A DNA stretch of 7,723 nucleotides, taken from the NCBI GenBank assembly GCA_027037705.1, contig JALVYZ010000339.1:1-7723 (forward strand). Reading direction: 5' to 3'. The translations under genes were made by a program, and so were the position numbers. Positions 2,183 through 7,723 of this stretch are shown here, piece after piece. The notes beneath the pieces were generated by a model. That model was not told the DNA's origin. It did not search any database and was given only the letters and a program-made list of their open reading frames with translations. The stretch comes from a bacterium (lineage in GTDB: Bacteria > DYJV01 > JALVYZ01). Positions within the stretch are counted from its first letter, which is position 1, and every line of letters starts with the position of its first letter.

Positions 2183-2545
2183 ATGGATAAAAAAATTATT
2201 CTTGGCGGCTGGAATGATAGTGAATTAAATAAAATTTTCAACCTATCTAATGAAGTAAAATATATAACTGTTAATAATTCAAATTTAAATGACACAATTA
2301 ATGAAATTCTAAGTAGAAATTTAACAGATAATGATGGAGAACAATTATATGAAAAAATTGTAATTTTTCATATGTTTACTAAAGAAGAAGTATTTGACTT
2401 TATAAAAAAATTTAAAAATTTAAAACTACAATATCCTATATTTGCTGTAGTAACAGAACATTCCATAAATTGGAAATTAAGCTATTTATTAGAACATTTA
2501 ATTGAAGAAAGAGAATATTTCAGGAAAAGAAAAAAAGATCAATAA
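2183..2545 (+). CDS. Small DUF3783-like protein at the end of the cobalamin operon
   Basis: This 120-residue cytoplasmic protein has no signal peptide or membrane segment. I match it from memory, without a search, to the DUF3783 family of small proteins of unknown function. The match rests on the C-terminal pattern PIFAVVTEHSINWKLSYLLE (residues 85-104) followed by an acidic-basic helix (HLIEEREYFRKRKKDQ). The N-terminal half alternates short strands (KKIILGG, KYITVNN, EKIVIFHMF) with helices, suggesting a small alpha/beta fold. The ATG lies 4 nt after the cbiET stop, with an AAGGTG Shine-Dalgarno sequence at 2172-2177 overlapping that stop, so it is co-transcribed with cbiD-cbiET. The context hints at a link with corrinoid or anaerobic metabolism, but no catalytic residues can be named. 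Its last 7 nt overlap the 3' end of the convergent gene. Confidence 0.75.
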   Translation: MDKKIILGGWNDSELNKIFNLSNEVKYITVNNSNLNDTINEILSRNLTDNDGEQLYEKIVIFHMFTKEEVFDFIKKFKNLKLQYPIFAVVTEHSINWKLSYLLEHLIEEREYFRKRKKDQ

Positions 2546-4254
2546 CAAACTCTATTTTTTCCAGATCGTTTTGCTTCATAAAGTTTAATATCTGCTTTTT
2601 TAATTAACTCTTCTAAGCTTTCATTTTTTTCTCTCATTGCGACACCGAGGCTAATTGTAATTTTTTCTTTTTCAATAGGTGATTCCCATTTAATATTTTC
2701 TATAGCTTCTCTTATTCTTTCAGCTAACTTTATTAAATCTTCCTTATTTTTTATGATTAATAAAATTAAAAATTCCTCACCACCATATCTTACAATTATA
2801 TCACCTTGCCTTAGAACTTTTATTATTACTTCTGCGATTTTAGACAAAACTTTATCCCCTACATCGTGTCCATATGTATCATTTATATGTTTGAAATCAT
2901 CAATATCAATCATAATTGCGCCAATTTCAGACACCATATCTCTATCGTGTAAAGAAAAAAACCTATTTGATACTTCCATTAAAAAATACCTTGTATAACA
3001 CTTTGTTAACTGATCTTTTATAGATATATTATAGTATATATTTTTTTCTTTTATTAATTGTCGATTTTTTAGTTCTCTTTGGATAGCAACACTTAAAAAA
3101 TTAGAAATTTGAAACAAAACTCTTTCTAATTCTTTATCAACATTAATTTCTTTATCACTTTCTATTTTTAAAAAACCTATTATTTTTCGAGATTCTTTAT
3201 CTATAAAAGGAATGAATAAATTGTTTTTCTTAATAATAAAAAAGTTATTGTCTAATAAATATTTGTCTATTGTTATGTTTAAATACTTTAGAAAATCTTC
3301 TTTTTTTGAAATTTTTTCCCAAACAGTTGGAGTTTTGGAATTAAATGTTATATATTCATTGTCATAAAAAATGTAAAAATTTAAATCTTTATATTTAATT
3401 ATTTTACTCAATTCACCAGAAAAACTTTTTATCAATTCATTTAAATCTGTATAAGAAGCAATTATATTTATTAAATTTTTTAAAAAATCATTTAATATTC
3501 TTAATCTTTGAATTTCTGTTGAAGTTTCAGTTAATAAAAAGATACCACAATCTAAATCCTTTAGTTTTGATATTATCTTTTTAATTAAAGGCTTTCTAAT
3601 AATAGAACCATGCTGTGGAGCAATAATATCTATGTCTAATTTCTCAATTTTTTCAAGAGTATGTTGCAAAATTTCTTTTGAGGGCATATAATGAGAATGA
3701 AATTTAGCTATTGCTTCAAAATATGATTCATCTTTAGCAAATAAACTCCATTTTTCAGTAAAACCACCAAAAATATCACTTGAAAATAAAATTTTAGATT
3801 TTTCATCATATGTGCAAAAAGCTCCTGCAAAATGAAGATATGGAGTAAAAATAAATTTTAATCTTCTATCCCCTGCTAATATCTCCCAATTATTTTTTTC
3901 AACACATTCAATATTTAAATTTAAATCATAATGTTTTATTAATGCTATTGCCCTCCAGTGAGATAAAACTATTCCATCTTTTCTATTCCATTTTTTTTCA
4001 ATTGTTTTTAAAGATGCTGTAATATCAGGATCTTGATGATGGCAAATTATATATTTTATATTTTTAAATGGGATAATATGTTCAATCTTTTCTAATGTTT
4101 TATGAAATGTAATATTTGACCCAGGATCAATTAGAATAGAATTATTTCCATTTTCAATAAGATATACATGGCATTGGAATTGATCATTTTCTAAAACTTC
4201 ACCAACCCAGTAGATATTTTCTTTTATTTGTATCGGCAAATTCAGTCCTTTCAT
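2539..4254 (-). CDS. ODP-type diiron (metallo-beta-lactamase fold) - GAF-like - GGDEF diguanylate cyclase
   Basis: This soluble 571-residue protein has three regions. Residues 1-235 are a metallo-beta-lactamase fold of the flavodiiron/ODP kind. Candidate metal ligands are H73, D75 and D77 (HQDPD), H141 (YLHFAGAF), D160 (FSSDIFGG) and H215 (PQHGS). Compared with the FprA pattern H-x-E-x-D-H, the Glu is Asp75 and the last His is Ile78. No flavodoxin domain follows, so it cannot be a complete flavodiiron reductase. Residues ~255-395 look like a GAF domain (FIPFIDKESRKIIGFLKIES). Residues ~412-571 are a GGDEF domain with DQLTKCYTR, D450/D452/D453 (MIDIDDF), an active-site RYGGEEF (489-495) and an RxxD inhibitory site (R482-D485), so it should make c-di-GMP from GTP and be product-inhibited. 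Iron, O2, NO or redox sensing is inferred from ODP proteins. The start has a weak AGG 5 nt upstream. Confidence 0.88.
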   Translation of the reverse strand: MKGLNLPIQIKENIYWVGEVLENDQFQCHVYLIENGNNSILIDPGSNITFHKTLEKIEHIIPFKNIKYIICHHQDPDITASLKTIEKKWNRKDGIVLSHWRAIALIKHYDLNLNIECVEKNNWEILAGDRRLKFIFTPYLHFAGAFCTYDEKSKILFSSDIFGGFTEKWSLFAKDESYFEAIAKFHSHYMPSKEILQHTLEKIEKLDIDIIAPQHGSIIRKPLIKKIISKLKDLDCGIFLLTETSTEIQRLRILNDFLKNLINIIASYTDLNELIKSFSGELSKIIKYKDLNFYIFYDNEYITFNSKTPTVWEKISKKEDFLKYLNITIDKYLLDNNFFIIKKNNLFIPFIDKESRKIIGFLKIESDKEINVDKELERVLFQISNFLSVAIQRELKNRQLIKEKNIYYNISIKDQLTKCYTRYFLMEVSNRFFSLHDRDMVSEIGAIMIDIDDFKHINDTYGHDVGDKVLSKIAEVIIKVLRQGDIIVRYGGEEFLILLIIKNKEDLIKLAERIREAIENIKWESPIEKEKITISLGVAMREKNESLEELIKKADIKLYEAKRSGKNRVCY

Positions 4255-4322: not shown

Positions 4323-4338
4323 TGTTTCACGCGAAACA
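4323..4338. promoter_or_regulatory. parS-like ParB (Spo0J) binding site
   Basis: TGTTTCACGCGAAACA matches the widespread bacterial chromosomal parS consensus TGTTTCACGTGAAACA at 15 of 16 positions. The one change (T to C in the right half) breaks perfect symmetry; the only unpaired positions are the seventh and tenth. A G+C-containing near-palindrome is conspicuous in this AT-rich spacer. Chromosomal parS sites usually lie near the replication origin, often but not always by parAB, and no parAB is in view. An alternative is an operator for one of the flanking divergent genes, since it lies about 47 bp before the HD gene ATG. Confidence 0.6.
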
Positions 4339-4384
4339 TTTCTAACGAACTTGCATATTTATATAAAATTTGTTAAAAATAAGT

Positions 4385-5038
4385 ATGTTAAATTGTATCT
4401 TTTGCGAAAAAAATATAAAAAACATTACAACTAAAACAATTGAGTGTGATAACTGCAACAATCTATTCCCAAATTTAACATTTACTAATTATAAAGAATT
4501 ATGGGAAGATTTTATTGATAAGTATCTTTCTTCAATTCCTCAGATTTTCCCTTATACAGTTGCTTTTAAAATGAAAGGATATTTTGAAAATGATTTTAAA
4601 AGAATATTCCATGCTTTGAATGTTGCTAACTTTGCATATTTTATAGCTAAAAAAGAAAATGGTGATTTAAATGTTGTTTTATGTTGCGGTTATCTCCATG
4701 ATATTGGAATTAAAAATTCTGAATTGAAATACAACTCAAGTGCTCCAAAATATCAAGAGATTGAAGGCCCACCTGTTGCTGAAGAAATTTTATCAAAATT
4801 AAAAGCTCCAGAAAAGTTAATAAGAGAAGTTTGTAATATAATTGGACATCATCATTCTCCTAAAGAAGTCGAAACAATAAATTTCAAATGCTTATATGAT
4901 GCAGATTTAATTCAAAACTGGATTGATGGGATAAAAGAAAGGAATGTTAAACCACAAAATATTGATAAGATATTGAATCTTTTTTATACTGAAACTGGGA
5001 AAAAATTAATAAAAAATATATTTCAAAATGTTCAATAA
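4385..5038 (+). CDS. HD-domain phosphohydrolase with N-terminal Cys4 (zinc-ribbon-like) knuckle
   Basis: This is a putative metal-dependent phosphohydrolase of 217 residues. Residues 4-24 contain two CxxC pairs (C4/C7 and C21/C24), likely a small zinc ribbon. The HD domain spans about residues 70-180, with H76 (FHALNV), the H105-D106 doublet in YLHDIGI, H155-H157 (IGHHHSP) and a late Asp (D172 or D174 in YDADLI), as expected of metal ligands. The segment KYQEIEGPPVAEEIL (122-136) resembles small HD proteins I associate with anaerobic proteobacteria. The substrate is unknown. It lacks the GYP signature, so it is not an HD-GYP c-di-GMP phosphodiesterase. I chose ATG 4385; an in-frame TTG at 4370 would add five residues but has no ribosome site. 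A TATAAA at 4362-4367 could be its -10, implying a very short leader. Its last 11 nt overlap the dGTPase gene, indicating co-translation. Confidence 0.8.
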   Translation: MLNCIFCEKNIKNITTKTIECDNCNNLFPNLTFTNYKELWEDFIDKYLSSIPQIFPYTVAFKMKGYFENDFKRIFHALNVANFAYFIAKKENGDLNVVLCCGYLHDIGIKNSELKYNSSAPKYQEIEGPPVAEEILSKLKAPEKLIREVCNIIGHHHSPKEVETINFKCLYDADLIQNWIDGIKERNVKPQNIDKILNLFYTETGKKLIKNIFQNVQ

Positions 5039-6392: not shown

Positions 6393-6872
6393 GTGAAACA
6401 ACTTATAAAATTAAAAGTAAATGGTGATGAATATGAAATTGCAGTTGCTCCATGGAAAACATTAAATGAGGTCTTAAGAAAAGAATTAAATTTAACAGGG
6501 ACTAAACTTGGTTGTGGAACAGGTGATTGTGGAGCTTGTACAGTTTTAGTTGATGGGAAAGCTGTGAATTCATGTTTAACTTTAGCTGTTGAAGTACAAG
6601 GTAAAGAAATTACAACAATTGAAGGACTTGCTGAATCTGAAGATAAACTTCATCCTATTCAGGAGTCATTCATTGAAAAAGGTGCTGTTCAATGTGGATT
6701 TTGTACTCCTGGAATGATAATGACCACGAAATATTTTCTTGAAAATAATCCTTCTCCAACTGTTGAGGAAATTAAAAAAGCTCTTGATGGGAATTTATGT
6801 CGATGCACAGGATATGTAAAGATAATTGATGCTATTCAAGATGCTGCAAAAAAAATGAAAGGAGGCAAGTAA
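6393..6872 (+). CDS. [2Fe-2S] small subunit of a xanthine dehydrogenase/CO dehydrogenase-type molybdenum hydroxylase (CoxS/XdhC-like)
   Basis: This electron-transfer subunit, 159 aa (normal length), carries two [2Fe-2S] clusters that pass electrons from the molybdopterin subunit to the FAD subunit. The N-terminal plant-ferredoxin-like domain has C41, C46, C49 (GCGTGDCGAC) and C61 (NSCLTL). The C-terminal helical domain has C101 and C104 (QCGFCTPGM) and C136 and C138 (LCRCTGY), so all eight ligands are present, with the conserved Q100 near the molybdenum cofactor. Translation starts at GTG with a strong GGAGGA site, about 30 nt downstream of a predicted sigma-54 start. The FAD-subunit gene follows after a 1-nt gap. 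Family members oxidise purines, CO, nicotinate, aldehydes and other substrates. The substrate depends on the large subunit, which lies outside the window, so I give no specific gene symbol. Confidence 0.93.
   Translation: MKQLIKLKVNGDEYEIAVAPWKTLNEVLRKELNLTGTKLGCGTGDCGACTVLVDGKAVNSCLTLAVEVQGKEITTIEGLAESEDKLHPIQESFIEKGAVQCGFCTPGMIMTTKYFLENNPSPTVEEIKKALDGNLCRCTGYVKIIDAIQDAAKKMKGGK
6861..6865 (+). promoter_or_regulatory. Shine-Dalgarno site for the GTG start at 6874
   Basis: GGAGG lies 8 nt before the GTG at 6874, within the last codons of the Fe-S subunit gene. It supports the non-ATG start of the FAD subunit; the encoded GLPKFIYLAPKTIDEA matches the usual family N terminus. Confidence 0.75.
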
Positions 6873-6873
6873 A

Positions 6874-7723
6874 GTGGGATTGCCAAAATTTATATATTTA
6901 GCACCAAAAACAATAGATGAAGCATGTGAAATGCTTGAAAAATATGGAGACAAAGCTAAAGTCAAAGCAGGTGGCACTGACTTGATAATAAAAATGTCAA
7001 ATAGAATTTTAACTCCAGAATATATAATAGGATTAAAAAATATAGAAGAACTTAATTATATAAAATTCGGTGAAAATGAAGGATTAAAAATAGGAGCACT
7101 TGCTATACTTTCTGATATTGCAAATAATCCTATAATTAAAGAAAAATATCCTGCCATATCTTATGCTGCAAGCGTTACAGCAACAAATCAAGTAAGAAAT
7201 ATGGCTACTTTAGTTGGTAATTTATGTAATGCTGCTCCAAGTGCAGATAACGCTCCCACTATATTAGCTCTTGGTGCTAAAATTGTTTTGCATTCATTAA
7301 AAGGTGATAGAGTTATTCCTTTAGAAGAATTTTTTAAAGGTCCAGGATTAACTGTTTTACAACCCAATGAAATTGTAAAAGAGGTAATAATTCCTGTACC
7401 AATTAAACAATCAGGAATGGCTTTTTTAAAAGCATCTCAGAGAGGAAAAGTTGATATTGCTGCAGTTAATATTGGGGTTTATTTAACCTTAGAAAATAGT
7501 AAAATAAAAAATATAAACATTTTTTTAGGTGCAGTGGCTCCAATACCAGTAAGAGCTAAAAATGCTGAGAGTGTATGTGAAGGAAAAGAGTTAACTGATG
7601 ATATTCTTTACGAAGCAGGTAAAAAAGCTACTGAAGATGCAAGCCCAATTACAGATATGAGAGCAACAAGAGAATACAGACTTGTGTTAGTAGAAGTGTT
7701 AACAAGAAGAGCTATAAGACAGG
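6874..7723 (+). CDS. FAD-binding subunit of the same molybdenum hydroxylase (CoxM/XdhB-like), 3'-truncated by the window edge
   Basis: This FAD subunit accepts electrons from the [2Fe-2S] protein and passes them to NAD+, ferredoxin or another acceptor. The frame is open for 283 codons from GTG 6874 to the right edge. Since the family is about 285-300 aa, only a few residues are missing. The N-terminal FAD-binding domain shows AGGTDL (32-37) and TATNQVRNMATLVGNLCNAA (102-121) followed by PSADNAPTILALGA, the two classical flavin-binding signatures. The C-terminal domain (from about residue 180; KASQRGKVDIAAVNIGV, then FLGAVAPIPVRA) matches CO_deh_flav_C. I see no insertion of the sort that carries a [4Fe-4S] cluster in 4-hydroxybenzoyl-CoA reductase beta subunits. 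It lies 1 nt after the Fe-S subunit stop in one operon. The order S-M suggests a large Mo subunit gene just beyond the window. Confidence 0.92.
   Translation, partial: MGLPKFIYLAPKTIDEACEMLEKYGDKAKVKAGGTDLIIKMSNRILTPEYIIGLKNIEELNYIKFGENEGLKIGALAILSDIANNPIIKEKYPAISYAASVTATNQVRNMATLVGNLCNAAPSADNAPTILALGAKIVLHSLKGDRVIPLEEFFKGPGLTVLQPNEIVKEVIIPVPIKQSGMAFLKASQRGKVDIAAVNIGVYLTLENSKIKNINIFLGAVAPIPVRAKNAESVCEGKELTDDILYEAGKKATEDASPITDMRATREYRLVLVEVLTRRAIRQ

Follow-up and report, generated by a model that had tools for sequence, protein, structure and literature searches.

A gene on the minus strand of the stretch of DNA analysed here (the window, 7,723 nucleotides) was read in the initial annotation as encoding an oxygen-binding diiron protein (ODP) domain joined through a GAF-like middle to a GGDEF domain, which raises the question of whether a single polypeptide could convert oxygen, iron or redox state directly into a cyclic di-GMP (c-di-GMP) signal. 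The open reading frame is uninterrupted and conserved among full-length relatives, and the same interval on the plus strand contains many stops. The proposed domain order is upheld by Pfam at both ends of the protein and by structure searches for its middle. The features discussed below are collected in Table 1.

Table 1. Positions in the window of the ODP-GAF-GGDEF gene, its domains and key residues, and the surrounding genes
Feature	Position	Strand	Remarks
ODP-GAF-GGDEF gene	2539..4254	minus	571 codons and stop codon at 2539-2541; ATG start at 4254
ODP domain, metallo-beta-lactamase fold, residues 1-243	3526..4254	minus	Pfam span 26-216 = 3607-4179
Signature D24-x-F-Q-C28-H29	4168..4185	minus	His29 in place of the near-universal Asn of other ODPs and flavodiiron proteins
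Metal-ligand motif H73-Q-D75-P-D77	4024..4038	minus	residue 78 is Ile; flavodiiron enzymes have a sixth His there
Ligand H141	3832..3834	minus	75/75 in alignment
Ligand D160	3775..3777	minus	75/75 in alignment
Q214-H215 of PQHG	3610..3615	minus	Q214, ODP-specific replacement ligand; H215, ligand
GAF domain, about residues 244-373	3136..3525	minus	no conserved Cys or His
Signalling helix, 39 residues, 374-412	3019..3135	minus	last GAF helix into GGDEF; DSSP of model
GGDEF diguanylate cyclase domain, residues 413-568	2551..3018	minus	PF00990, E 1.1e-40
Inhibitory site R482-Q-G-D485 (RxxD)	2800..2811	minus	R482 74/75, D485 75/75
Catalytic signature GGEEF, residues 491-495	2770..2784	minus	E494 75/75
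DUF3783 protein gene	2183-2545	plus	7-base overlap of its 3' end with the convergent ODP gene
HD-domain protein gene, divergent from ODP gene	4370-5038	plus	four-cysteine, zinc-ribbon-like N-terminus (CIFC...CDNC)
Cobalamin genes: CbiD (cut by window start) and fused CbiE/CbiT-like methyltransferase overlapping CbiD	3-2178	plus	
Xanthine/CO dehydrogenase-family small [2Fe-2S] and FAD subunits	6393-7722	plus	window ends inside

Domain identity and the predicted metal site

Residues 26-216 of the protein match the Pfam profile PF19583 along its entire length (positions 1-194 of 194; E 6.9e-64; 215.7 bits against a cut-off of 27.2), and no flavodoxin model in Pfam matches the 571-residue chain. 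The solved structures nearest in sequence are the oxygen-binding diiron proteins of T. maritima and T. denticola (~26% identity), and the predicted domain is matched best by 6qwo (Z 31.3, rmsd 2.2, 240 residues), with the peroxo-diiron structure 6r9n at Z 29.5 (rmsd 2.5, 226 residues). Together these results bear out a metal-binding fold that stands without a flavodoxin domain. The metal itself may be other than iron, as the same fold can hold zinc and 6qwo is a zinc-reconstituted T. maritima ODP. Flavodiiron proteins (FDPs) are tied with the ODPs by fold or fall just below them (Z 26-29.5); in the tree they separate from ODPs at 100/100, with the window protein on the ODP side. Identification as a flavodiiron enzyme was rejected on this tree position, the ODP-type ligand set, the lack of a flavodoxin domain and the sequence HQDPDI instead of HxExDH.

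The six residues originally proposed as ligands (H73, D75, D77, H141, D160 and H215) all align with the ligand positions of the T. maritima and T. denticola ODPs, and by alignment to these solved sites they probably cluster at one metal site. Each is invariant in a 75-row full-length alignment (75/75; all counts over 75 rows include the window protein), a conservation that for H73, D75, D77 and H215 arises partly by construction, since these four of the six ligands formed part of the search patterns that gathered the relatives; the same ligand set also occurs in ODPs collected by profile, without a pattern. Where ligand rows were compared, four sampled FDPs read H-E-D-H...H...D...S-H and the sampled ODPs H-D-D-[IVL]...H...D...Q-H, with D77N in L127 as the one exception, and position 214 is Gln in every tabulated ODP row and Ser in 4/4 FDPs. 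In the T. maritima ODP the Gln of motif 5 stands in for the third His of motif 2 (survey, PMC7785958), and I78 and Q214 of the window protein fit this unusual ligand set. L127 and L128, both fusions of an ODP with a class III cyclase, carry Asn at the third ligand position (HHQDPN), and their metal site is possibly altered.

A further signature sets the GGDEF-fused ODPs apart. Residue 29 is His in 25/25 GGDEF fusions, Asn in 23/24 other ODPs and Asn in 4/4 FDPs; C236 is present in 24/25 of the GGDEF-fused ODPs in this comparison, and both C28 and C236 are found in 75/75 rows of the larger alignment. The change at C28 and H29 possibly lies in the second sphere of the metal site.

Profile searches served the two ends of the chain and the middle unequally: the ODP part was recovered with PF19583 as described above, and no Pfam GAF profile matches the window protein (two of the 75 aligned proteins have a match, the best at 4.7e-4). 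A whole-chain AlphaFold2 model built on the 75-row alignment has a mean pLDDT of 91.8 and a pTM of 0.64, a value that makes the relative placing of its domains unreliable. The middle was modelled alone (residues 243-412, 68 rows, pLDDT 88), and the matches listed for it in the PDB are GAF domains or GAF-bearing proteins, led by 3ci6 in Foldseek (3.2e-6) and 3k2n in VIA (Z 14.4, 141 residues, rmsd 2.5). The GAF-like middle is thus supported as a fold, and the contrary reading suggested by the silence of Pfam was rejected.

At the C-terminus, the intact GGDEF domain and RxxD site described in the initial annotation are confirmed by GGEEF at 491-495 and R482-x-x-D485, which are near-universal in the alignment; D450, K562 and R489 are each present in 75/75 rows. 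The fold matches PleD, DosC and DcsBis (Z about 24-26), and the closest solved GGDEF domain by sequence is that of DosC (4zve). GGEEF, D450 and K562 are the sequence hallmarks of a diguanylate cyclase, and cyclase activity is accordingly predicted for this domain.

Relatives and genomic setting

Relatives were gathered by scanning genome contigs with a five-row ODP alignment as query, which returned at least 541, of which the best 80 were kept. The full-length alignment comprises the window protein and 74 relatives, two of 76 intact frames having been left out: L048, in which a class III cyclase takes the place of GGDEF, and L032 (5980-6870, from a Spirochaetaceae MAG), in which the ODP frame stops inside the GAF domain at 297 residues, through either a frameshift or a real truncation. 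All 75 rows share the ODP-middle-GGDEF architecture, a count that describes the set nearest the window protein rather than ODPs at large. By their record labels the relatives belong to 11 phyla (Deferribacterota, Spirochaetota, Thermodesulfobacteriota, Pseudomonadota, Chloroflexota, Nitrospinota, Acidobacteriota, Planctomycetota, Campylobacterota, Nitrospirota and Actinomycetota) and are mostly MAGs of anaerobes or of bacteria from oxic-anoxic interfaces. The fusion therefore represents a widespread family and is not peculiar to the source genome.

When 386 genomes were searched domain-wide by profile, ODP-GGDEF fusions were recovered in G000, G011, G159, G316 and G364, together with ODP-class III cyclases, a receiver-ODP protein, a Ser/Thr kinase-ODP protein and stand-alone ODPs. 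A protein of 726 residues with a Ser/Thr protein kinase fused N-terminally to the ODP is encoded at L135:424-2601. Such variation of output (class III cyclase, receiver, Ser/Thr kinase) behind a constant ODP is consistent with the ODP acting as an input module. The GGDEF fusions group together in the tree, with one cyclase row inside, on a branch supported at 94/92 and not starred; the window protein pairs with that of a Deferribacteraceae MAG at 97/90 (63% identity in the ODP).

Across about 80 loci the flanking genes include no conserved neighbour. Small sets of neighbours that recur, at 4-5 loci, appear to track taxonomy, and the gene neighbourhood of the nearest relative, L031, differs from that of the window; a conserved operon partner was rejected on these grounds. 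The constant architecture and the lack of shared neighbours point to a self-contained, one-component sensor. A viral origin was likewise rejected, viral contigs yielding no close relative and one distant ODP at 27% identity. On plasmids only a separate ODP and GGDEF pair was encountered, in Fusobacteria ZRK30 (L030:4971-6490), where the ODP gene overlaps the start of the GGDEF gene and the latter is annotated in two pieces; this pair is a split version of ODP-GGDEF.

In the host genome, profile matches comprise eight GGDEF, two EAL, one PilZ and two chemoreceptor domains, and the first three indicate that a c-di-GMP network is present. The window gene is the only PF19583 match in this genome (93% complete); because the profile also matches flavodiiron proteins in control genomes, the search amounts to finding no flavodiiron protein in the host. 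Beside the gene, the product of the divergent HD-domain gene is not of the HD-GYP type. A promoter scan of the region found sites no more numerous than in shuffled sequence. Upstream of the ODP gene, the intergenic stretch that separates it from the divergent gene contains a parS-type palindrome, TGTTTCGCGTGAAACA (4323-4338), which agrees at 15/16 positions with the B. subtilis parS consensus. About 0.01 chance matches are expected at two mismatches, this is the sole exact copy in the genome, and the host has one ParB; the palindrome is a candidate ParB site or, alternatively, a candidate local operator.

Proposed signal perception and competing explanations

With the domain order and identity confirmed and the ODP ligand set intact, the protein is best read as an O2/iron-responsive diguanylate cyclase, the sensing role being carried over by analogy from the ODPs of T. 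maritima and T. denticola. More fully, it would be a soluble, one-component sensor in which a diiron ODP turns O2, Fe(II) or redox state into a c-di-GMP level, a reading to which a probability of roughly 0.7 is assigned. The N-terminal domain, whose ligand positions are present, would hold two irons in an ODP-type site and react with O2 to give a stable peroxo or oxidised state, as established for the T. denticola and T. maritima proteins. In a parallel dimer, the resulting change may then pass along the GAF domain and the 39-residue helix and so decide whether the two GGDEF domains come together productively to form c-di-GMP, with the RxxD site presumably providing product feedback and the c-di-GMP level acting on motility or attachment. 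The reduced form is perhaps the more active; this is a guess modelled on the hemerythrin cyclase Bhr-DGC.

An alternative that is possible, if on the unlikely side, is that the ODP senses available Fe(II) through metal occupancy rather than O2, with the apo and metal-loaded states setting cyclase output. It is a sub-reading of the O2/iron-responsive cyclase, and the confidence given to each overlaps. Many relatives come from settings generally known to be high in Fe(II), such as those of Mariprofundus and Magnetococcales, and the title of Muok et al. (2019) describes the T. denticola ODP as sensing iron as well as oxygen. Against this, the strict conservation of all the ligands suits O2 and Fe(II) alike, and the two are inseparable by sequence.

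The modelled GAF fold also admits an improbable arrangement in which a small ligand is sensed chiefly by the GAF domain, the ODP having a structural role or serving as a second input. Against it, the GAF domain is the least conserved region of the protein (mean 0.32-0.45 per 50-residue block versus about 0.7 in the ODP), and no Cys or His within it is conserved across the 75-row alignment. A haem- or bilin-binding GAF domain was rejected on the latter ground, binding of either cofactor through the usual residues being unlikely for most family members. Low conservation and the lack of conserved Cys or His together make it more likely that the domain acts as a relay or in dimerisation than that it carries a fixed cofactor.

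Nitric oxide as the physiological signal would accord with the diiron metallo-beta-lactamase-fold sites of flavodiiron proteins, which are known to bind and reduce NO, but nothing in the window sequence or the relatives favours NO over O2 and this is very doubtful. Least probable of all is that the ODP is still an enzyme (an O2 or NO scavenger, or a hydrolase) fused to GGDEF for localisation or regulation, since the fold that it has in common with flavodiiron NO/O2 reductases is accompanied by neither a flavodoxin nor another electron donor domain, no conserved neighbour could supply an electron donor, the ligand set is of the ODP rather than the FDP type, and the cyclase site is intact across the family.

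Should the O2/iron-responsive cyclase be the correct reading, strict anaerobes, iron oxidisers and magnetotactic bacteria would have a one-protein route from O2 or ferrous iron to the choice between motile and sessile life that dispenses with haem. The swapped outputs behind the ODP support it as a general sensory module, comparable to the globin and hemerythrin domains. It is suggested, tentatively, that these proteins form a class of diguanylate cyclases that spans phyla, is unexplored biochemically and is distinct from the haem and hemerythrin cyclases, and in which an ODP site with Cys28-His29 is tuned for O2 or Fe(II) sensing and provides anaerobes and microaerophiles with a direct oxygen- or iron-to-c-di-GMP link. 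With 75 clean full-length members including the window protein, in 11 phyla, from the best 80 of at least 541 relatives, the family is large, and as its members are also soluble it is readily testable.

Comparison with known systems

According to the account in the TREND paper (PMC7319448), ODPs occur in operons with signalling genes and fused with signal-transduction domains (Muok et al., 2019); on that account the ODP as a fused input domain is already reported in general, and ODP-GGDEF falls within that kind. The open-licence literature yielded no biochemical study of an ODP-GGDEF protein and no relevant paper naming ODP with diguanylate cyclase, or PF19583, and the family appears widespread, built from known parts and biochemically unstudied.

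The closest characterized counterparts are the T. denticola and T. maritima ODPs (6r9n, 6qnm, 6qwo and 6qrq; Muok et al., 2019), which resemble the window ODP in fold (Z 31.3 to 27.3), ligand positions, the absent sixth His and the Gln of PQHG, at about 26% identity. They are separate proteins that couple to a cytoplasmic chemoreceptor, whereas the window ODP is covalently joined to GAF-GGDEF, lies on another branch of the ODP tree and carries DxFQCH with His29. The gene for a chemotaxis-coupled ODP would be expected beside a cytoplasmic chemoreceptor gene; in contrast, the neighbours of the window gene are the DUF3783 and HD-domain genes and no chemoreceptor gene is found in the window. Flavodiiron proteins (FprA, NorV, ROO) have the same metallo-beta-lactamase diiron fold (Z 26-29.5) but differ in their HxExDH motif, flavodoxin domain, enzymatic function and place in the tree (split at 100/100).

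Among cyclases, the globin-coupled diguanylate cyclases (DosC and relatives) are likewise soluble and O2-responsive, a property predicted for the window protein, although their sensor is a haem globin. Bhr-DGC of Vibrio cholerae, a hemerythrin-GGDEF protein, is alike in that a non-haem diiron input controls a C-terminal GGDEF domain, but its diiron fold is unrelated and it contains no ODP. As cited in PMC9388753, its diferrous form is about 10 times more active (Schaller, 2012), and Bhr-DGC thus offers, by analogy, a precedent for diiron control of a cyclase.
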